39,947 nt of DNA from a virus. Of the stretch, positions 3,776 through 39,516 are shown piece after piece. Each line of letters starts with the position of its first letter. Within the stretch, counting starts at the first letter, position 1. A program made the translations under genes and the position numbers. The stretch covers positions 1 to 39,947 of IMG/VR virus record IMGVR_UViG_3300047560_000468; one strand, written 5' to 3'. The notes below the pieces were generated by a model that was given only the letters and a program-made list of their open reading frames with translations, did no database searches and was not told the origin of the DNA.

Positions 3776-4054
3776 ATGAAAGATAGTAGACTAGAAAGAG
3801 CTGGTGTAGCTGGATATAACCAACCTAAACGCACACCGAACCATCCAACCAAAAGCCATGTTGTTGTAGCTAAGTCTGGAGATCAAGTTAAAACTATTAG
3901 ATTTGGACAACAGGGTGTGGTGGGTAGTCCTAAGAAAGCTGGGGAGAGTGAAGCTTACAGGAACAGACGAGAAAGTTTTAAAGCTCGTCATGCTAAGAAC
4001 ATTGCCAAAGGTAAGATGAGTGCTGCTTATTGGGCTGACAAGGTTAAATGGTAA
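3776..4054 (+). CDS. Conserved basic phage protein
   Basis: 92 aa, strongly basic, with a conserved-looking C-terminus (ESFKARHAKNIAKG then KMSAAYWADKVKW) that I associate with small proteins of aquatic podoviruses and cyanophages. No function is known to me; DNA or RNA binding is plausible from composition. It starts 68 nt after the previous gene and may belong to the same transcript. Its stop codon (TAA) lies inside one of the dispersed 18-bp palindromes (4050-4067). Confidence 0.8.
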   Translation: MKDSRLERAGVAGYNQPKRTPNHPTKSHVVVAKSGDQVKTIRFGQQGVVGSPKKAGESEAYRNRRESFKARHAKNIAKGKMSAAYWADKVKW

Positions 4055-4067
4055 CTTATAAGTTAAT
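4050..4067. repeat. Dispersed 18-bp palindrome, site 1 (GGTAACT-N4-AGTTAAT)
   Basis: GGTAACT, then TATA, then AGTTAAT. The inner 14 nt (4052-4065) are a perfect palindrome. The stop codon of the gene ending at 4054 is inside it. A weaker relative (AGTAACC-TATA-AGTATTG) lies at 4082-4099 and runs into the -35 box of the promoter at 4097. Confidence 0.7.
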
Positions 4068-4096
4068 ATAAAAAGTAATAAAGTAACCTATAAGTA

Positions 4097-4136
4097 TTGA
4101 CTTTTATTATATTATATGCTATAATACTTATAAGTA
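4097..4136 (+). promoter_or_regulatory. Sigma70 promoter with start-site palindrome
   Basis: TTGACT (4097-4102), a 17-nt spacer, then TATAAT (4120-4125) preceded by TGC, so also an extended -10. The palindrome TACTTATAAGTA (4125-4136) begins in the -10 and covers the expected start site, where an operator would block initiation. It should drive the tail/ejection operon from 4150. The same arrangement is seen at 25350-25391 on the other strand. Confidence 0.85.
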
Positions 4137-4149
4137 GAAGGAATAAGAG

Positions 4150-4797
4150 ATGACTTATTTACAAATAGTTAACAAAGTACTAAGAAGACTTAGAGAAAGA
4201 GAAGTTACTTCTGTCTCTCAAAGTACTTATAGTAAACTTATTGGTGACTTTGTTAATGATGCTAAAAAAGAAGTTGAAGATGCTTGGCAATGGAGCGTAT
4301 TAAGAACTACGCTTACTTTAACCACTTCTAATGGTGTGTTTAACTATGAGCTTAATGGAAGTCAGAACAACTTTAATGTTATAGATGTTGTTAATGACAC
4401 CAGCAATAAGTTCATGCAATATAAAACATCTGTGTGGTTTGACAATCAGTTCTTAAACATGAACCCTGCAAGTGGTTCTCCTTTGTACTACAACTTTAAT
4501 GGTGTATCTACTGATGGAGATACTCAAGTTGATCTCTATCCTATTCCAGATGGCATCTATCAACTCCGATTTAATTCTGTTGTTAGACCTTTAGAGCTTA
4601 CTAATGACACGGATAAAATTGTTGTTCCCAATCAACCTGTCTTTTTGTTAGCTGTTGCTAAGGCAATTGAAGAGCGTGGAGAAGATGGTGGAACCTCTAG
4701 CATGAATGCTTATGCTGCTGGTCGTAGTGCCCTTGCTGATGAAATTGCTTACGATATGGCTCGTCATCCTGAAGACTCTATTTGGCAAACAGTATGA
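4150..4797 (+). CDS. Tail tubular protein A-like (head-tail adaptor)
   Basis: 215 aa, close to T7 gp11 (196 aa). The N-terminus MTYLQIVNKVLRRLRE followed by a GDFVNDAKKEVEDAW helix is typical of podovirus tail-tube A / adaptor proteins. It would sit below the portal and connect head to tail nozzle. Its stop overlaps the ATG of the tail tubular B homologue (ATGA), the usual order. It is the first gene after the promoter at 4097-4125. Confidence 0.85.
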   Translation: MTYLQIVNKVLRRLREREVTSVSQSTYSKLIGDFVNDAKKEVEDAWQWSVLRTTLTLTTSNGVFNYELNGSQNNFNVIDVVNDTSNKFMQYKTSVWFDNQFLNMNPASGSPLYYNFNGVSTDGDTQVDLYPIPDGIYQLRFNSVVRPLELTNDTDKIVVPNQPVFLLAVAKAIEERGEDGGTSSMNAYAAGRSALADEIAYDMARHPEDSIWQTV

Positions 4798-13481: not shown

Positions 13482-15398
13482 TTACCTCACAGGGCAAGCA
13501 CCAGAAGCACACTCATCTTCAAGACCAATGTTTGCTTCATCAATCTGCGTGATCAATCGAGTATTAGCAACCATCTCATCATATTGCTCTTTAGTAATTT
13601 CTTCCAATGGAGCTTGTTTGAATCCATGATCGCTATGCAACAGGAACGACAGGCTCTTGTGGTTGTTCTTGTAATGCTTCTTGAGATATTTACGAATCTC
13701 AGGTAGCTCTTCCTTGCGGTAGTAGATTGTGCAGCTCACGCTGTTGTCACTCCATACTTCCTGCAACCACTTAACAACCTCAAGCTGGTCAATGGCAGTC
13801 ATGTCTTTAGCCAGCAAAGCCTCTTCAGGGTGGCTAAAGGGGAAGCTAACAACGACAGTGCCAAAGTCCTCAGAGCCATCAAAGTTCTGCTGATACTCCA
13901 CATGATAGCCATGATCTTTACAAACCTGCACCAGAGGGTGATTGCTTGCAATACGAATACGGCGAATCATGTAACGAGCATAGGCAGGATGAGCACCCGG
14001 AGTGACACCGGGAAGCAGGCTCAGAGTGCCAGAGGGCTTCACAGTGGTAATCTTAATGCTCTCAGGGAACCCATTCTCCTCTGAATACTCTTTGTCAAAC
14101 TCACGCAGCTTGGTGTAAACCTCCTTGAGCCAGCTCTTTTGATCTTCAGTGGCTTGCAACACCCCTGTCACACCAATGCCCATACGCATATTCTTGTTAA
14201 CAATAGCCTCGGTACTCTTCAAGTGACACTTGAGGGCAAGGCTATGTTTGTTAATGCGATATAGCAGGGTGGCTACATCCAGAAATTCTTCTTTGCTTGT
14301 GATGTTGGGCAGGAAGATTTCAGCCAAGCAGCAGGTTTCCTTATCTGCTAGGCTTTGCTCAGCGCAAGGATTATATCCCTGAACTTCTGGGTCAGGGTAT
14401 TGGGTCTCCCCCAGTCTTCCAATCTTTCGAGAAAGCTTAAGGTTGATGAGGCCATAGGGCTCACCTTTCCCTTCGTAACCATCCCAGAAGAATTCATGCA
14501 AATCTCCGATGTCATTGCACACCACGCTGTTGTTGGACATAGCTCTCCAGCTCGGGATATTTCCCAAGTCCCATCGTTTAGCAAGTAAATATTCCACATC
14601 GTCTGAATCTCCAATTGCAATCTGAGCTGAACGGCGAACATTACCAGCTACCACAATAGCACCAATAATGTTCATAATATCCAAGCAGTCCACAGGGCGA
14701 ACCTTCTTACCTGCTCTCTTCTCCAAGATTTCACCAATCTTAGTGATGCCCCACACGAGGTCTTCAGGGCCAGAGGCAGTACCACCAAAGCCCTTGATAG
14801 GAGCCCCTTTAGAGCGAATAAGCTTGGTGCTGTAGGTGAAGGTCTGCTTACCACTTTCGTGAGCTAGGAAGGCTGCTTTAAGCGTTTTCCCAAGCAATCT
14901 AACCCAGCCCTCCCTGCTGTCAGGAACAATGAAGTCTGCATCATCAGAATCAATACGTGTTGGAGTCTTAAAAGATTCCTTGACAGGGGGGAGTTTATCT
15001 ACGTTAGCTTTCTGAATGTTATAACCAACACCAGAGCCAAGCATAAGCAAATCCATGGCCCAGATAAAAGGCTCTACAGGTTGATCAACCACAGTGAAAG
15101 CGCAGTTCTGAAGGCTAGACAAACCCAATCGGTTAACAGTATCAGTACCAAGTTGCCACAGGAAACGCCCTGCAACAGTCCCCTTCAAAAGCATTAGGTG
15201 GTTCTTTAAACGTTCATTCTCTTCGTCAGTAAAGCCACAGCCAAGCTGTTCATTACACGCCTTCACAACACGAGAGATAGTTTCATTAAATTCCTCAGTC
15301 GGGCTGTTGGGGTCTGCTTCGTTTAAGCGCCTAGAGTATGTACGCTTATATGTTAAATAACCAACAGTGCTCCAAGGAGTACCAGTCTCATAACTCAT
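13482..15398 (-). CDS. nrdJ: Adenosylcobalamin-dependent (class II) ribonucleotide reductase, monomeric
   Basis: 638 aa, related to the monomeric Lactobacillus leichmannii ribonucleoside-triphosphate reductase. Key cysteines are in place: C99 (QNCAFTVVD) and C356 (KETCCLAE) as the redox pair, C345 in NPCAEQ as the thiyl radical residue, with E347, and C-terminal C630/C635 (CASGACPVR) that re-reduce the active site. It makes deoxyribonucleotides for phage DNA synthesis and needs cobalamin from host or environment, but no oxygen and no small subunit. The start has AAAGGGAAC upstream and overlaps the previous small gene by 11 nt. ThyX is encoded in the same arm. Confidence 0.95.
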   Translation of the reverse strand: MSYETGTPWSTVGYLTYKRTYSRRLNEADPNSPTEEFNETISRVVKACNEQLGCGFTDEENERLKNHLMLLKGTVAGRFLWQLGTDTVNRLGLSSLQNCAFTVVDQPVEPFIWAMDLLMLGSGVGYNIQKANVDKLPPVKESFKTPTRIDSDDADFIVPDSREGWVRLLGKTLKAAFLAHESGKQTFTYSTKLIRSKGAPIKGFGGTASGPEDLVWGITKIGEILEKRAGKKVRPVDCLDIMNIIGAIVVAGNVRRSAQIAIGDSDDVEYLLAKRWDLGNIPSWRAMSNNSVVCNDIGDLHEFFWDGYEGKGEPYGLINLKLSRKIGRLGETQYPDPEVQGYNPCAEQSLADKETCCLAEIFLPNITSKEEFLDVATLLYRINKHSLALKCHLKSTEAIVNKNMRMGIGVTGVLQATEDQKSWLKEVYTKLREFDKEYSEENGFPESIKITTVKPSGTLSLLPGVTPGAHPAYARYMIRRIRIASNHPLVQVCKDHGYHVEYQQNFDGSEDFGTVVVSFPFSHPEEALLAKDMTAIDQLEVVKWLQEVWSDNSVSCTIYYRKEELPEIRKYLKKHYKNNHKSLSFLLHSDHGFKQAPLEEITKEQYDEMVANTRLITQIDEANIGLEDECASGACPVR

Positions 15399-16700: not shown

Positions 16701-16777
16701 TGGTATGCCCTAGAGGAATTGAACCTCTGACCCACAGCTTAGAAGGCTGTTGCTCTATCCAACTGAGCTAAGGGCAT
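16701..16777 (-). tRNA. tRNA-Arg (anticodon UCU), CCA encoded
   Basis: On the minus strand a full cloverleaf can be drawn: acceptor ATGCCCT/AGGGCAT (7 bp), D arm GCTC/GAGC, anticodon stem ACAGC/GCTGT with loop CTTCTAA (UCU reads AGA), T arm AGAGG/CCTCT with loop TTCAATT, discriminator A, then CCA in the DNA. AGA is a common Arg codon in this AT-rich genome, so the tRNA probably supplements a host with few AGA-reading tRNAs. It lies between thyX and a small gene on the same strand. Confidence 0.95.
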
Positions 16778-24900: not shown

Positions 24901-25097
24901 TACAGTTCCCAATTATTTAGTAGTTCAATCTGAGCTTTACGTTCTTCTTCTGTTAGTGGTTTGCTCTCTGGTTTCATACGCAAAAAAGCAAGCTGAAATA
25001 GTTCCATCCATTCAGCATAACCAATCTTATGAGCCAGTTCAGCAGCATCTATCAATGTGAAATGTAGCCACATTTCTTCTTGATCTTCATTGCTCAT
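24900..25097 (-). CDS. Hypothetical protein
   Basis: 65 aa from ATG 25097 with GGAG upstream (MSNEDQEEMWLHFTLIDAAE). Fully helical, acidic, with a Trp/Leu-rich core (IGYAEWMELFQLAFLRM). It sits between a zinc-finger protein and the primase-helicase. Not recognised. Confidence 0.65.
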   Translation of the reverse strand: MSNEDQEEMWLHFTLIDAAELAHKIGYAEWMELFQLAFLRMKPESKPLTEEERKAQIELLNNWEL

Positions 25098-25278
25098 TTT
25101 CATCTCCTTCAATTTCTATATCACTCTCGTGTCGTAAGTCGCTACGCTCGTAGACATCAATATCATCTCGGATTGTATGATAACAATCATTACACATATC
25201 TAAAAAATCACCAGTTGTAGCACTCCTACGAGTAGCTTCAAAGTCTGATAACAAACTATTGCAACAATAACAACGCAT
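25087..25278 (-). CDS. Small zinc-finger protein
   Basis: 63 aa: MRCYCCNSLLSDFEATRRSA, then DFLDMCNDCYHTI, giving C-x-C-C and C-x-x-C pairs that can bind one zinc, followed by a very acidic tail. A short conserved T7-like phage protein with this zinc pattern is common beside the primase gene; role unknown. It is the first gene after the promoter at 25363-25391. Confidence 0.75.
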   Translation of the reverse strand: MRCYCCNSLLSDFEATRRSATTGDFLDMCNDCYHTIRDDIDVYERSDLRHESDIEIEGDENEQ

Positions 25279-25349: not shown

Positions 25350-25391
25350 TACTTATAAGTATATTATACATAGAAGCATAACAAGTGTCAA
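25350..25391 (-). promoter_or_regulatory. Consensus sigma70 promoter with start-site palindrome
   Basis: Minus strand: TTGACA (25391-25386), 17-nt spacer, TATAAT (25368-25363), a perfect consensus. The palindrome TACTTATAAGTA (25350-25361) covers the expected start site, as at 4125-4136. It drives the replication genes from 25278 down. Confidence 0.9.
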
Positions 25392-25411: not shown

Positions 25412-25429
25412 GGTAACTCATTAGTTACC
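25412..25429. repeat. 18-bp palindrome, site 7 (perfect)
   Basis: GGTAACT, CATT, AGTTACC, extended by one more T/A pair. The stop of the gene ending at 25425 is inside it, and it lies ~20 nt upstream of the -35 of the replication promoter. Confidence 0.8.
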
Positions 25430-27919: not shown

Positions 27920-28174
27920 TCAAATTACCTTAGCATCAGCTTGACGGACACGCAAGCGCACATGATCACGATGTACACGGACAACACTTGTGTGCTTGAC
28001 AGTGACATATCGGTCCACACTAGGGACTGCTTTTCGGATTGTCACACTAAACAAACCGATTCTAGCCACCTGCCCATTATGATGCTTACCATCATGGTAA
28101 ACAGTTAAGAACCGATTGCCATGGTCTGAGACAAAGCTACGGGCAACAAAAAATTCACGGATTTTTGCAAACAT
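27920..28174 (-). CDS. Basic hypothetical protein, early gene
   Basis: 84 aa: MFAKIREFFVARSFVSDHGN, then beta-rich and very Arg/His/Val rich (VDRYVTVKHTSVVRVHRDHV). A GAGAGG site precedes the start. Second gene of the early arm and rich in positive charge, so nucleic-acid binding or host take-over is possible. Not recognised. Confidence 0.6.
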   Translation of the reverse strand: MFAKIREFFVARSFVSDHGNRFLTVYHDGKHHNGQVARIGLFSVTIRKAVPSVDRYVTVKHTSVVRVHRDHVRLRVRQADAKVI

Positions 28175-29308: not shown

Positions 29309-29381
29309 AGTGGATAAGCTGTGGATAACTTATTGATTTGTAAAGAACTTGTGGATATCCTGTGGATAACTATGTGGATAA
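29309..29381. other. Cluster of five DnaA boxes, putative replication origin
   Basis: TGTGGATAA (reverse of the strong DnaA box TTATCCACA) occurs exactly at 29320-29328, 29361-29369 and 29373-29381, and with one mismatch at 29309-29317 and 29350-29358. All have the same orientation. Start distances are 11, 30, 11 and 12 nt, close to whole helical turns. An AT-rich stretch (29420-29600) follows on one side, as an unwinding element would. It lies at the divergence point of the two transcription arms. Confidence 0.75.
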
Positions 29382-29434: not shown

Positions 29435-29478
29435 TTGACAAATTAAGAATTTTGTGGTATACTATATACATATATGTA
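29435..29478 (+). promoter_or_regulatory. Sigma70 promoter for the packaging/head operon, with palindrome
   Basis: TTGACA (29435-29440), 17-nt spacer, TATACT (29458-29463). The palindrome TACATATATGTA (29467-29478) lies at the expected start site, a variant of TACTTATAAGTA. The ~145-nt leader is AT-rich and carries another ACTTATAAGT (29570-29579) shortly before the small terminase gene. Confidence 0.82.
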
Positions 29479-29614
29479 ACTCAGGATGCATATACGAAAT
29501 AAGCACTAAGGATGCTTAAATAAAATGCTTAAGTTATTGTTAATAATTTAAGAAATAGTTTAGAGCTTTACTTATAAGTTGCACTGAATAGCTTATAAGG
29601 TACTAAGGACATAG

Positions 29615-30070
29615 ATGACTCAAGAGCTACTTAAAGATGTAAATCTTTCACCTGTTAGCGTTATTAATACACAATCGGTGAATGAACAAGATGTTGTTAA
29701 AAGAAAAAGAGGGCGCCCTCGTAAGGGGGAAGTAGTAGCTAAAAAAGCAGGTAACAGGGGTGTTGTTGGTCGCCCTAAAGGTGAACAGAGCATCATCAAT
29801 GAATACAGGGCTAGAATGTTGGCTAGTCCTAAAAGTGCTAAGGTGCTTGAGAAGATTTATGAAGCAGCTCTGGATGATGCTCACAAGAACCAGAGTGCTG
29901 CCTGGAAGCTCATTATGGACAGGATGCTTCCCCTTAGTTATTTTGAGAAGAGCAGTGCTAATGCTGGGCGTAGTAGTGTTAATATCACTATCACTGGTGT
30001 TAATGGAGAAACCACCATCATTGGTGACAATGGTGACCAAGTTGAGGACATCCCATTCAATGAACTTTGA
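29615..30070 (+). CDS. Putative small terminase subunit with AT-hook
   Basis: 151 aa, with AAGGAC upstream. Residues ~30-38 (KRKRGRPRKGE) are a textbook AT-hook, and a second GRPKGE follows. The remainder is helical (INEYRARMLASPKSAKVLEK, AAWKLIMDRMLPLSYFE), with a beta-like C-terminus. Its position two genes before the large terminase and its DNA-binding character point to the small terminase, which recognises phage DNA for packaging. It overlaps the next gene by 11 nt. Confidence 0.75.
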   Translation: MTQELLKDVNLSPVSVINTQSVNEQDVVKRKRGRPRKGEVVAKKAGNRGVVGRPKGEQSIINEYRARMLASPKSAKVLEKIYEAALDDAHKNQSAAWKLIMDRMLPLSYFEKSSANAGRSSVNITITGVNGETTIIGDNGDQVEDIPFNEL

Positions 30071-32683: not shown

Positions 32684-34638
32684 GCTTTGAAGAAGAAACC
32701 TACAAGGATGATGGCCTTGCCTCTTGGGTGATGGAGAAAGTAGATCGCTGGCGTGATCACTATGAAAGCACTTATAAAGAACGCTTTGAGGAATACTATC
32801 GCCTGTGGAGAGGGCAGTGGAATGCTTCTGATAAAACTCGTGAAAGCGAGAGAAGCAAACTCATTAGCCCTGCTTTGCAGCAAGCTGTAGAGAGTGCTGT
32901 TGCTGAGGTTGAAGAAGCCACTTTTGGTCGTGGTAAGTGGTTTGATATTAAAGATGATGCTCGTGATGCTCAGAACTTGGATATTCAGGTAACTAGAGAG
33001 TTACTTAATGAAGAGTTTCAGTTCACTAAAGTTAGACGAGCCATCTCTGAAATCCTGATTAACTCAGCCGTATATGGTACTGGCTGTGGTGAACTGGTGT
33101 TGGAAGAGGTCAATGATGTAACACCAGCTTCTCAGCCCATTCTAGATGGCGCTGCTATGGCTGTAGGTGTGATGGTACAGCCTCGCACTGTTGTTAAACT
33201 ACGTCCTGTGCTTCCTCAGAACTTCTTGATTGATCCTAATGCTTCCTCTATTGAAGAAGCTTTGGGTGTTGCTATTGATGAATTTGTTCCTAAACATCAG
33301 GTTAAAATCTTGCAAGAGCAGGGTGTTTACAAAGATGTAGAGATTGATAGTGCTGCTCCTGATCAAGAGCTTGAGCCTGATCAAGAAATGATTATCTATC
33401 AAGATGATAAAGTACGTCTAACCAAGTATTATGGTCTTGTTCCTACTGATTTGCTTAAGAAACATTTAGGCACTTATGAAGAGCCTAAGAACGAGAAGGC
33501 TGATGAGAAAGAGGATGAGAATGAGCCTGAGTACACTGAGGCAATTATTGTTATTGGCAATAGTGGTGTATGCTTGAAGGCTGAAGAAAATCCTTACATG
33601 ATGGAAGATCGTCCTGTAGTGGCTTTTGCTTGGGATGTTGTTCCTGGTCGTTTCTGGGGCCGTGGTATTTGTGAGAAGGGTTATAATAGCCAGAAGGCTT
33701 TGGATGCCGAGTTGAGAGCTCGTATTGATGGATTAGCTCTTACTGTGCACCCAATGATGGCTATTGATGGCTCTCGGATGCCTAGAGGCTCTAAGTTTGA
33801 GATTCGTCCGGGTAAAACTGTTGTAACCAATGGTAATCCTTCTGAAATCTTGCAGCCATTTAAGTTTGGTGGTATTGATAATGTAACTTTCCAACAAGCT
33901 GGTGAACTTCAAAAGATGGTTCAGATGGCTACTGGTGCTATTGATGCTGCTGGAATGACTGGGGCTGTCAATGGTGAAGCTGCTGCTGGTGCTGTTTCTA
34001 TGTCTTTGGGTGCAATCATCAAGAGACATAAGAGAACGCTTATTAATTTCCAAGAAACTTTCCTACTTCCTATGGTAAGTAAGGTTGCTTGGAGATATAT
34101 GCAATATGATCCTGATCGTTTCCCTGCTCAAGACTACAAATTTGTAGCCTCTAGCACACTAGGTGTGATAGCTCGTGAGTATGAAGTAACTCAATTGGTT
34201 CAATTGCTTAATACTTTGAGTAATGATAGTCCTTTGTATCCTTTGTTGGTTCAAGGTGTTGTGGAAAATATGAGTTTGTCCAATAGAGAAAGCTTTATTG
34301 AGCAACTTAAGCAAGCTAGTCAGCCTACCCCTCAACAACAACAAATGGCAGAGATGGATATGCAAGTTAAAATGGCTAGTGCTCAAGCTCAAATTGCATT
34401 ACTACAGGCTCAAGCTGCTGAAAGTCAGGCCAGAGCTGCTAAATATACTACAGAAGCTCAAGCTGTTCCTGCTCGTTTGGAGAATGATAGAATTAGAGCT
34501 ATCTCGGCTAATATCAAGCCAGGAGAACAGGACGATAAAGAGTTTGAACGTAGGGCAAAAGTTGCTGAATTGGTCCTAAAAGAGCGTGAAATTGCTAGCA
34601 GAGAGGCTATTGTAGCTCAGCAAATGAATAAAGCTTGA
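32680..34638 (+). CDS. Portal (head-tail connector) protein
   Basis: 652 aa. The early YYRLWRGQWNASDKTRESER, and later GRFWGRGICEKGYNSQKALD, are typical of podovirus portals, as is the Gln/Ala-rich C-terminal helix (residues ~555-600, QMAEMDMQVKMASAQAQIAL) that forms the barrel. It sits at the capsid vertex and is the docking site for terminase and tail adaptor. Longer than T7 gp8 (536 aa). Palindrome-like site 10 lies in its 5' third. Confidence 0.88.
   Translation: MSFEEETYKDDGLASWVMEKVDRWRDHYESTYKERFEEYYRLWRGQWNASDKTRESERSKLISPALQQAVESAVAEVEEATFGRGKWFDIKDDARDAQNLDIQVTRELLNEEFQFTKVRRAISEILINSAVYGTGCGELVLEEVNDVTPASQPILDGAAMAVGVMVQPRTVVKLRPVLPQNFLIDPNASSIEEALGVAIDEFVPKHQVKILQEQGVYKDVEIDSAAPDQELEPDQEMIIYQDDKVRLTKYYGLVPTDLLKKHLGTYEEPKNEKADEKEDENEPEYTEAIIVIGNSGVCLKAEENPYMMEDRPVVAFAWDVVPGRFWGRGICEKGYNSQKALDAELRARIDGLALTVHPMMAIDGSRMPRGSKFEIRPGKTVVTNGNPSEILQPFKFGGIDNVTFQQAGELQKMVQMATGAIDAAGMTGAVNGEAAAGAVSMSLGAIIKRHKRTLINFQETFLLPMVSKVAWRYMQYDPDRFPAQDYKFVASSTLGVIAREYEVTQLVQLLNTLSNDSPLYPLLVQGVVENMSLSNRESFIEQLKQASQPTPQQQQMAEMDMQVKMASAQAQIALLQAQAAESQARAAKYTTEAQAVPARLENDRIRAISANIKPGEQDDKEFERRAKVAELVLKEREIASREAIVAQQMNKA
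32988..33005. repeat. 18-bp palindrome, coding copy, site 10
   Basis: GGTAACT, AGAG, AGTTACT: six perfect pairs with the standard 4-nt centre, in the portal gene. Confidence 0.5.
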
Positions 34639-34663
34639 CAAATGTAAACTTTTGTGTTATAAT
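34635..34663 (+). promoter_or_regulatory. Consensus sigma70 promoter for scaffold/capsid genes
   Basis: TTGACA (34635-34640), 17-nt spacer, TATAAT (34658-34663): a perfect consensus. The -35 begins within the portal stop codon (TGA) and is directly downstream of it. Unlike the promoters at 4097, 25391 and 29435 it has no start-site palindrome, so it may be constitutive and give the large amounts of scaffold and capsid protein. Confidence 0.88.
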
Positions 34664-34696
34664 AAAGACATAATAGCATCCTAAAAGGAGAAATGC

Positions 34697-34936
34697 TTGA
34701 ACGAATTGAACGAATATTATGAATCTTTGTTAGAAATTTTCACTACTTCAGGGTGGAAACACTTTGAAGAAGACCTGAAAAGAAGTCTAGAGAACTTAAA
34801 TACTCTCCAGAACATTTCAGATAGTGAAACTTTCTGGCATAGGAAGGGCGAAGTGTCAGTACTCCAGACGCTTCTCGGTTATAAGGATGCTATTACAGCA
34901 GCTTATGAGGAGATGCAAGATGCTGAGAGTGTTTGA
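34697..34936 (+). CDS. Small helical protein, TTG start
   Basis: 79 aa: MNELNEYYESLLEIFTTSGW ... EVSVLQTLLGYKDAITAAYE. TTG 34697 is the likely start: AAGGAG lies 6 nt before it, while the nearby ATG (34693) is in another frame and closed. Acidic helical proteins of this type precede scaffold genes in related phages. Overlaps the next gene by 17 nt. Confidence 0.7.
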   Translation: MNELNEYYESLLEIFTTSGWKHFEEDLKRSLENLNTLQNISDSETFWHRKGEVSVLQTLLGYKDAITAAYEEMQDAESV

Positions 34937-37038: not shown

Positions 37039-39516
37039 ATGGCTATTTGGAGAGGAGTGGGTGGCTCTGGCGAGAGCACTAATGACTCCACAGTTCCTAC
37101 AGTAACTGATCTTTTAGTGCAGACAAACGCAGCTAAAACGGATGCTCAAACTGCTGCTACATCTGCTGCATCTTCTGCTACTGCTGCTTCTGGAAGTGCT
37201 TCAAGTGCAGCTTCTTCTTCAACTACGGCTTCTACACAAGCCACTAATGCAGCTTCTTCTGCAAGTGCTGCTTCAACTTCAGCAAGTAATGCAGCTTCTT
37301 CTGCTACTTCTGCTGCATCCTCTGCAACTACTGCAACTACTAAAGCTTCTGAAGCGTCTACCTCTGCTACTAATGCAGCATCCAGTGCTACGTCTGCTGC
37401 GTCTTCTGCTACTACTGCTACAACTAAAGCTTCAGAAGCTTCTACTTCTGCTACAAATGCGGCCTCTTCTGCGACTTCTGCTGCGAGTTCGGCAAGCACA
37501 GCTACGACTCAGGCAAGCAATGCAGCTTCTAGTGCAACTTCTGCGGCTGCCGCTCAGAGTGCTGCTGAAACTGCACGAGATCAAACCTTAGCTGCCTTTG
37601 ATAGCTTTGATGATCGTTATCTGGGACAGAAGAGCACTGCTCCTACTGTGGACAATGATGGCAATGCTTTGGTTGCTGGTGCTTTGTATTTCAACACCAC
37701 AACTAATGAGATGAAGGTGTATGACGGTACTCAGTGGTTGAGTGCCTATGCTTCTTTGTCTGGTGCTCTGTTAGCTACGAACAACCTTAGTGATTTGAAC
37801 AATGTAGCCACTGCTAGAACCAATCTTGGTTTAGGCACTGCAGCTACTACCAATGCCTCTAGTTATGTTGCTGTCACTGGTGACCAAACTGTTGCTGGCA
37901 TTAAGACCTTCAGCAGCAATCCTGTGCTCTCTGGCGGCACTGCCAACGGAGTGCTGTATCTCAACGGCTCTAAAGTTGCAACGAGTGGGTCTGCGCTGAC
38001 TTTTGATGGGACAACAGTTGCAAACATTAACAGCGATGGAACTGGGTTTTCCACGCAAAATGCCGCATCTAACTTTTCAATCTTGCGACTTGGAACTGAT
38101 AGCGTAAACGGCTATGCGTTTTTCCAAAGTGGCAAGAGTGGAACAGGCACAACTTTGCCTTTTTCGTGGAGGCAAGACTCCAGCGAGTTAATGCGCCTGA
38201 CCAGCACAGGGCTGGGTATTGGGACGAGTTCGCCTTCTTATAAGTTGGATGTCTACGGAGCGACTGGTGTTGTTTCTAGATTCAAATCGTCCGGCAATTA
38301 CGCAGTAGTGGTCGCAGATAACAGCAATACTACTGGTGGTGGTTCTTTTTCTGCAAGACAAAATGGTACTTCATACGCCATTTTTGGCGTTAGCGGAGCC
38401 ATTCAAGGCGACACAAGCACTGACGCCGCGATTTTGGCAGACGGCGCAGGCAAGGGCATTAATTTTTACACCAACGGTTCTCCGACTGTAAAAGCCACCC
38501 TCGACTCCTCCGGCAACCTTGGATTAGGTGTTACTCCTAGTGCTTGGAATACCCTGACAACAATGCAAATCAAAAACGCATCGTTCTCAGGATATGGCAA
38601 CCATTCATACACAATGGCAAATACTTTCTATCAAACAGGATGGAAATACATTGCGTCTGAATATGCTTTGCAGTATTACCAAAACGCTACTGCTGGCTCT
38701 CACGTTTGGTACAACGCCGCCTCCGGCACAGCAGGAAACGCCATCACCTTCACTCAGGCGATGACGCTGGATGCTAGTGGTTCATTAGGTATTGGTGTAA
38801 CTTCAGTACCAGAAGCATTGACTGTTAAGCCAAACGGAACCGGCGCAAATCTTGGTTTGAACCTTGTAAATAACGCAAGTAACCTGTCAGGAGTTTTGTT
38901 TAGCACTAATGCCGCACCAGCAACTTCGTACACCTATATCAAGGGCGATGGTCGTTCTAGCGGCTTTATTACGCTGTCAACAAACGACACCGAGCGTATG
39001 CGTATCGACTCCAGCGGTAACGTGCTGGTGGGGACTACAAGCGTCAACTTTACTGGAAGCGGCCTCACTTTATCTAGTAATGCTGGAACTACAAAGTGGC
39101 TTGTTGGCCCTTACTCTGGGGCTAGTGGCCAATTTTATGTTTGTTCTAGTAGTTCTACGGGTGTTTATTTAAGTAGCACAAGCGCAACATCTTGGTCTTC
39201 AAATTCTGACTTTAATCTGAAAACAGATTTGGTTGCTATTGAGAACGCAGCAGAAAAAGTAGCATCGCTTCGTGCGGTTACTGGTCGTTATAAAACAGAC
39301 CCTGAAGGTACAAGCAGAGCTTTCTTGATTGCTCAAGATGTTCAAGCCGTGTTGCCAGAGGCTGTTGCGCCTACAACCATGTATGACGGAACAGAAGTTC
39401 TTGGTCTTGCTTACACCGAAGTCATCCCACTTTTGGTTGCCGCAATTAAAGAACAACAAGCCATCATTGAACAACTCACCAGCCGTATTGCGGCACTTGA
39501 AACGAAAGGAGCCTGA
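37039..39516 (+). CDS. Tail fibre with S74-type chaperone tip (allele 2)
   Basis: 825 aa, AAGGAGA upstream. Residues 1-35 are a probable virion anchor. Residues ~35-185 are Ala/Ser/Thr-rich with heptad character, including a 28-residue repeat (around SATTATTKASEASTSATNAA) used twice. DDRYLGQKS and GALYFNTTTNEMKVYDGTQW mark a common fibre joint domain. Beads with DSSGNLGLGVTPSAW follow. The last ~110 residues (SNSDFNLKTDLVAIENAAEK ... TSRAFLIAQDVQAVLPEA) are the endosialidase-type intramolecular chaperone (Peptidase_S74), which folds the trimer and may cut itself off. 38847-39002 repeats window positions 1-156. Confidence 0.93.
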   Translation: MAIWRGVGGSGESTNDSTVPTVTDLLVQTNAAKTDAQTAATSAASSATAASGSASSAASSSTTASTQATNAASSASAASTSASNAASSATSAASSATTATTKASEASTSATNAASSATSAASSATTATTKASEASTSATNAASSATSAASSASTATTQASNAASSATSAAAAQSAAETARDQTLAAFDSFDDRYLGQKSTAPTVDNDGNALVAGALYFNTTTNEMKVYDGTQWLSAYASLSGALLATNNLSDLNNVATARTNLGLGTAATTNASSYVAVTGDQTVAGIKTFSSNPVLSGGTANGVLYLNGSKVATSGSALTFDGTTVANINSDGTGFSTQNAASNFSILRLGTDSVNGYAFFQSGKSGTGTTLPFSWRQDSSELMRLTSTGLGIGTSSPSYKLDVYGATGVVSRFKSSGNYAVVVADNSNTTGGGSFSARQNGTSYAIFGVSGAIQGDTSTDAAILADGAGKGINFYTNGSPTVKATLDSSGNLGLGVTPSAWNTLTTMQIKNASFSGYGNHSYTMANTFYQTGWKYIASEYALQYYQNATAGSHVWYNAASGTAGNAITFTQAMTLDASGSLGIGVTSVPEALTVKPNGTGANLGLNLVNNASNLSGVLFSTNAAPATSYTYIKGDGRSSGFITLSTNDTERMRIDSSGNVLVGTTSVNFTGSGLTLSSNAGTTKWLVGPYSGASGQFYVCSSSSTGVYLSSTSATSWSSNSDFNLKTDLVAIENAAEKVASLRAVTGRYKTDPEGTSRAFLIAQDVQAVLPEAVAPTTMYDGTEVLGLAYTEVIPLLVAAIKEQQAIIEQLTSRIAALETKGA
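38847..39002. repeat. Direct repeat, copy 2 (matches 1-156)
   Basis: Lies in the fibre gene. Up to 38973 it is identical to the window start; 38974 is the first difference. After 39002 the two continuations encode different fibre tips. If 38846 is joined to 1 the fibre frame continues without shift (1808 + 1378 nt is divisible by three). Confidence 0.93.

Follow-up and report, generated by a model that had tools for sequence, protein, structure and literature searches.

A palindrome at the predicted start points of three sigma70 promoters in a family of aquatic phages is a putative operator

Does the ten-base palindrome at the predicted start points of three strong promoters in this phage genome serve as an operator, and which protein might read it? 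The DNA analysed here, called the window throughout its whole length, is a 39,947-base virus record listed as linear in IMG/VR. Its gene content is podovirus-like, with a T7-like DNA polymerase, a primase-helicase and an exonuclease, and it also holds ribonucleotide reductase, thymidylate synthase, terminase, portal and capsid genes. The GenBank phage set contained no close relative; many relatives, several of them near full length, were found in IMG/VR. The phage is water-borne and its family aquatic. It appears to transcribe its genes with the sigma70 RNA polymerase of the host, since a scan of the large ORFs in the window showed no RNA polymerase gene and the promoters are near-consensus with extended -10 boxes.

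Three further features of the genome were recorded. The ribonucleotide reductase gene at 13482-15398 (minus strand) is ~89% identical to that of relatives G016 and G017 and ~30% identical to that of other close relatives, and is best read as a replaced gene. A tRNA-Arg(TCT) gene at 16701-16777 (minus strand) is ~91% identical to tRNA-Arg of Proteus phages; nothing else in the left 24 kb matches cultured phages strongly at the DNA level. Positions 1-192 and 38847-39038, within tail-fibre-like ORFs near both ends of the record, are 93% identical, and we take this repeat to be a paralogous fibre segment.

The four promoters agree with the sigma70 extended -10 pattern (TTGACA and TATAAT, a spacer of 16-18 nt, TGn before the -10 box). 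They score 11-12 of 12 hexamer bases and have 17-nt spacers, most of which end in TGn or TG. Start points were predicted at ~7 nt behind the -10 box. The earlier note had called the promoters perfect, which holds for P1 and P4 in both hexamers, whereas P3 (TTGACT) and P2 (TATACT) match 11 of 12 bases each. The promoters and the genes next to them are as follows.

4097..4125 (+), P3: TTGACT at 4097-4102, 17 nt, TATAAT at 4120-4125, with TGn before the -10 box
4150..4797 (+), tail protein gene (phrog_10775), the first behind P3
25363..25391 (-), P1, perfect: TTGACA at 25391-25386, 17 nt, TATAAT at 25368-25363
29435..29463 (+), P2: TTGACA at 29435-29440, 17 nt, TATACT at 29458-29463
29615..30070 (+), terS-like gene, the first behind P2, so named from its position ahead of terL
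34635..34663 (+), P4 of the capsid operon, perfect: TTGACA-17-TATAAT

All four promoters are fixed across the family, each preceding the same genes: zinc-ribbon and replication genes (P1), terS (P2), tail (P3) and capsid (P4). P1, with a predicted start at ~25356, drives the early leftward operon, in which a small zinc-ribbon protein is followed by primase-helicase and polymerase. P2 (predicted start ~29470) precedes terS and terL. P3 drives the tail operon from a predicted start near 4132 and also precedes the orthologous tail gene in relatives. The terS-like protein contains GRPRKG/GRPKG AT-hook-like stretches (the AT-hook itself scored below the Pfam cut-off). Just upstream of P2, at 29309-29381 (minus strand), there are five DnaA-box-like sites, three of them exact TTATCCACA; the end of this cluster also occurs in G002 and one single site in G004, and the cluster is a possible host-DnaA-dependent origin or control region. 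Behind P4, the capsid-operon leader contains a hairpin, AGCAT...ATGCT, at 34675-34697 (plus strand), with the Shine-Dalgarno AGGAG in its loop. Its arms covary in relatives (AACAT/ATGTT, TTCAT/ATGAA and, in marine ones, CATCTCT/AGAGATG), and 85% of cells pair vs. 65% in shuffled and 34-40% in slid controls. This hairpin probably controls translation of the capsid mRNA or protects its 5' end.

The promoter and palindrome sequences quoted in the earlier note (4097-4136, 25391-25350 and 29435-29478) are all present in the window. The list below goes beyond them with O1, O2, the exact copy in the P2 leader and a degenerate copy.

4054..4063, O1: ACTTATAAGT, palindrome, overlapping the stop codon of ORF 3776-4054
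4086..4095, O2: ACCTATAAGT, palindrome with one mismatch to ACTTATAAGT, ending 1 nt before the P3 -35 box
4126..4135, O3: ACTTATAAGT, palindrome directly behind the P3 -10 box (about -6 to +4)
25351..25360, P1 copy: ACTTATAAGT, palindrome lying over the predicted start, 2 nt behind the -10 box
29468..29477, P2 copy: ACATATATGT, sister palindrome lying over the predicted start, 4 nt behind the -10 box
29570..29579, fourth exact copy: ACTTATAAGT, palindrome in the P2 leader ~100 nt downstream of the predicted start
29591, degenerate copy: GCTTATAAGG

O3 lies within TACTTATAAGTA at 4125-4136 and covers the predicted P3 start; the P1 copy lies within the same longer sequence at 25361-25350 (minus strand). 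ACATATATGT occurs once in the window (29468), inside TACATATATGTA at 29467-29478. No palindrome was found behind P4 in the window or in nearly all relatives sampled, so the statement that the capsid promoter at 34635 lacks it was correct. An RNA hairpin was rejected as an explanation: the palindrome has no loop and straddles the predicted start, so that the RNA would hold only half of it.

We estimated how often such copies arise by chance. Markov models of orders 1-4 predict 0.03-0.07 copies of ACTTATAAGT in the window, where four exact copies were observed. All of them lie within its non-coding 6.6%, and ACTTATAAGT is the only one of the window's 30 10-bp palindromes that recurs. The probability of a perfect 10-bp palindrome at 0-5 nt behind a -10 box is ~0.008 per promoter in a random A+T-rich leader; three of the four strong promoters have one. 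Counting any 10-bp palindrome in the three window leaders gave 4 vs. 1.6 expected, which is not significant (p = 0.08). The case therefore lies in one repeated word, its fixed place and its conservation, and not in palindromicity itself.

Conservation was most informative at P3, where two palindromes flank the promoter, O2 abutting the -35 box and O3 the -10 box, with a centre-to-centre distance of 40 bp. We compared this region in five genomes (the window, G014, G013, G016 and G002). Mean pairwise identity was 0.89 for O2 and 0.96 for O3, vs. 0.51 upstream, 0.33 downstream and 0.68 in the spacer (ungapped); with the best shift, the flanks reached ~0.65 at most. In all five genomes, O2 and O3 are each at most one mismatch from ACTTATAAGT, and the mismatches fall at different positions. 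O2 is a perfect ACTTATAAGT in G014 and G002, whereas G013 and G016 differ from it at one position. In another relative, G011, the P3 copies have decayed, with 3 and 2 mismatches. This conservation of the site against unconserved flanks was seen at P3 only, in these five genomes. In a more distant branch, P3 keeps ACT....AGT with the centre TATA (G005), TAGT (G007) or AACA (G004); constant arms around a varying centre would be expected if two arms are recognised. The bracketing pair, absent from the earlier note, is in our judgement the best evidence for an operator.

The other promoters gave further instances. P1 in G016 and L309 also carries ACTTATAAGT, and the P2 element ACATATATGT is identical in G002. 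In the P1-P3 leaders of ten genomes, ACTTATAAGT occurred 9 times vs. 0.045 expected and ACATATATGT 3 times vs. 0.05 expected, counts that are not independent as the sequences are related. Within-sequence shuffles indicated an excess of full dyads at P3 (5 of 9 vs. 0.38 expected), at P1 (3 of 9 vs. 0.52, p = 0.0125) and at P2 (2 of 7 vs. 0.29, p = 0.03), and no enrichment at P4 (1 of 13 vs. 0.26 expected). Dyad symmetry overlapping the polymerase footprint thus exceeds chance, more weakly in those relatives with ACATATAAG. An absence of function, with shared ancestry and A+T-rich leaders prone to palindromes accounting for the pattern, is the least probable reading that we considered. The close relatives do share ancestry, and family leaders are rich in 10-bp palindromes of any kind (19 observed vs. 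8.8 expected), but one word at such excess over expectation, at three non-homologous promoters and conserved beyond its flanks, does not fit it. Close relatives conserve the start-site palindrome, which is probably a control switch.

We favour, on balance, the view that a symmetric dimeric protein, most likely phage-encoded and most likely a repressor, uses ACTTATAAGT and related words such as ACATATATGT and ACTTATATGT as its operator. The sequences, their repetition and positions and the conservation of the P3 pair are observed; from these we infer binding, the sign of regulation, the start points, a single shared factor and its phage origin. Extended -10, near-consensus promoters would fire unaided, so a brake would be needed. 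At each of P1, P2 and P3, a dimer bound to the palindrome would lie over the start point and the -10 box edge, and from there it would block open-complex formation. One phage-encoded factor would serve all three promoters, so that P1 might be shut down after the early phase, or the tail genes behind P3 held back, or both; P4 would stay outside the circuit. At P3, a second dimer at O2 would abut the -35 box, and with O2 and O3 both occupied the core promoter would be clamped from both sides. The centre of O2 is at about -41.5, from where a dimer on O2 alone could activate P3, and a dual role is therefore possible.

The main difficulty for the operator lies in the forms that the element takes among relatives. 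P1, P2 and P3 of close relatives have it at a distance of 0-4 nt from the -10 box, as ACTTATAAGT, ACTTATATGT, ACATATATGT, ACATAGATGT, ACACATAAGT or, most commonly, ACATATAAG. The latter is non-palindromic, and many relatives have it alone behind the -10 box. Exact ACTTATAAGT is absent in several relatives whose capsids are 84-93% identical. It was found in leaders 16 times in forward and 3 times in reverse orientation (perfect palindromes cannot show direction), which shows that not every copy would be a simple symmetric operator. In many relatives, ACATATAAG starts 4 nt behind the -10 box, so that C falls at -1 and A at +1, as in the classical CAT start. P4 also has ACAT at this offset, and at P3 of G001, G006 and G008 the element merges into the Shine-Dalgarno AAGGA (TAAGGA). 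Part of the orientation bias thus has other reasons, namely the CAT start and the Shine-Dalgarno overlap.

These observations suggest that RNA polymerase itself could instead be the reader of the element, as a signal in the start point or the initial transcribed sequence, with palindromy as a by-product. A CAT-type start and an easily melted A+T-rich stretch would speed opening and escape, and in short leaders the element would merge with the Shine-Dalgarno TAAGGA. We think this unlikely, yet serious because so many relatives carry the asymmetric, orientation-biased ACATATAAG. A precedent is the T5 N25 promoter, where the initial transcribed sequence has a strong effect on escape (PMC12464699), and the placement of the element in the sequence is compatible with an N25-type downstream promoter element. 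T5 early promoters such as N25 likewise come close to the sigma70 consensus and have an A+T-rich stretch that recurs directly behind the -10 box (PMC12464699); unlike at N25, the stretch here is often a true palindrome and is repeated upstream of the -35 box at P3. A signal read by polymerase leaves that upstream copy, O2, unexplained, as it does the mirror-placed C and G and the arms that persist despite a change of centre. The offset of the palindromic form also varies by 0-4 nt, and P4 needs no such element. This loose offset would suit occlusion better than a promoter element of fixed spacing. The shared promoter-operator design put forward in the earlier note is supported by word repetition, the P3 footprint, dyad enrichment at P1-P3 and rarity in bacteria, and weakened by the 16:3 bias of the asymmetric form. 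Its extension to one factor for three operons is plausible, with the reservations that P2 has ACATATATGT and not ACTTATAAGT and that no regulator was found among the scanned proteins.

We then asked how widespread the combination of promoter and palindrome is, scanning for TTGAC, a gap, TATAAT, a gap of 0-4 nt and ACTTATAAGT. In IMG/VR, 31 contigs matched; 18 of the 31 belong to the family of the window phage, with the match at P1, P2 and P3, and the others form about seven unrelated groups. Bacterial and archaeal genomes totalling 257 Gb (GTDB, 84,980 species genomes) gave 26 scattered matches, mostly in A+T-rich Firmicutes, none of them named as Methylophilales. The share in IMG/VR and the rarity in bacterial genomes indicate a trait of the phage family and not a common bacterial design, and a bacterial regulon was rejected on the scattered GTDB matches. 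That the phage borrows a host transcription factor and carries its operator is highly improbable. One word at several promoters and the failure to find the regulator among the scanned phage proteins would fit a host factor, but the arrangement is nearly absent from the species genomes searched, and the start-site element changes quickly between close relatives.

The operator might also belong to a larger set of sites. GGTWACT-N4-AGTWACC forms a genuine class of dispersed dyads that is conserved across the phage family, with up to ~12 per genome at no more than 2 mismatches, mostly in the replication half and also inside genes. They often stand at gene ends, and some are within genes and remote from the mapped promoters.

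13291, 16779, 18852, 21271, 23066, 25412, 27141, 28418, 28960, 32988: 18-bp sites in the window (18 bp each)
25412..25429: GGTAACTCATTAGTTACC, an 18-bp dyad ahead of the -35 box of P1, of a type separate from the start-site palindrome

The arms of the 18-bp motif lie one helical turn apart, so that it may be bound by a protein as DNA instead of forming a hairpin in the RNA. The earlier note had proposed that one protein binds both kinds of site, and we assessed a form of this in which a phage protein would read the start-site palindromes weakly and the 18-bp sites strongly. ACT-N4-AGT is common to both, and most relatives have an 18-bp copy upstream of P1. O1 is the core of the 18-bp-type site GGTAACTTATAAGTTAAT (4050-4067, 2 mismatches), the sole site of both types; at its position, relatives retain GGTAACT-N4-AGTTAC with an altered centre. 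The invariant bases differ, however. In the 18-bp sites, ACT/AGT is near-invariant and the centre free, a pattern that the scan itself favours, whereas the start-site element keeps its TATA centre, frequently has ACA and lacks the GGT/ACC arms. The 18-bp sites are also found within genes, far from mapped promoters. With differing invariant bases and one shared site, we rejected the two as a single sequence class and provisionally treat them as two signals; the proposal of a common protein is not supported and is very unlikely.

Which protein would read the palindrome? No DNA-binding family exceeded the cut-off among the early phage proteins scanned (Pfam/PHROGs), and three small early proteins were considered.

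25087..25278 (-), 63-aa CxxC...CxxC zinc-ribbon protein with an acidic tail, encoded by the first gene behind P1
26684..26854 (-), 56-aa HTH-like early protein
27920..28174 (-), 84-aa basic early protein, family-wide

The HTH-like protein was the most attractive of the three at first sight. Its gene has the same position in G017, and the protein is also present in G016, which combines it with ACTTATAAGT at P1 and P3. A further 54 phage loci have a homologue, and the 286 kb that they span contain not one ACTTATAAGT. As these loci lack the word and most element-bearing relatives lack the protein, it is an unlikely reader. Its closest homologues (57-68%) are in many other IMG/VR phages, and it has apparently been exchanged between phages. 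The zinc-ribbon protein is family-wide and always behind P1. It is acidic, conserved far beyond the family and present in phages that lack the start-site element; we found no relative of solved structure. The nearest named relatives of its gene are in the Methylophilales phages MEP401 and MEP402 (~51-53% identity). For the 84-aa basic protein, the AlphaFold model was poor (pLDDT 61), and a comparison with the PDB gave no relative that was convincing in sequence. Neither sequence nor model was informative for the zinc-ribbon and basic proteins. It is doubtful that a regulator lacking a recognisable DNA-binding domain, such as either of the last two proteins, reads the palindrome and times the three main operons, with the 18-bp network as a second layer.

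Repressor operators that overlap sigma70 promoters are well known from lambda CI/Cro at OR-PR and from Arc and Mnt of P22. As in lambda and P22, short dyads here overlap or flank the -35 and -10 boxes of strong host-polymerase promoters, and P3 has two or three operators. Unlike in those phages, a spacerless 10-bp palindrome sits on the start point of three separate operons, no repressor gene was found, and no lysogeny gene was seen among the scanned phage proteins. Among other small phages that use host sigma70 promoters and have no polymerase of their own, the pelagiphage Polarivirus skadi resembles the window phage in that no phage RNA polymerase was found and there are a handful of sigma70 promoters (PMC10504331). 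The available part of its description contains no start-site palindrome, and the replication genes of the window phage are T7-like. Skadi-1 is reported to have two transcriptional regulators, as do phages of the HTVC010P type (PMC10504331). Among the papers listed in a literature search with the palindrome words there was no phage operator, and the terms used brought up no paper on operators of pelagiphages or Methylophilales phages. An operator on a strong promoter is a textbook design; it is undescribed in this phage family as far as we searched.

The ordering of early and late genes is rarely known for small environmental phages that lack an RNA polymerase of their own. An operator shared by the early, packaging and tail operons and supported by a conserved footprint would offer a concrete bait for the regulator, and it would narrow the bases worth altering to a few.
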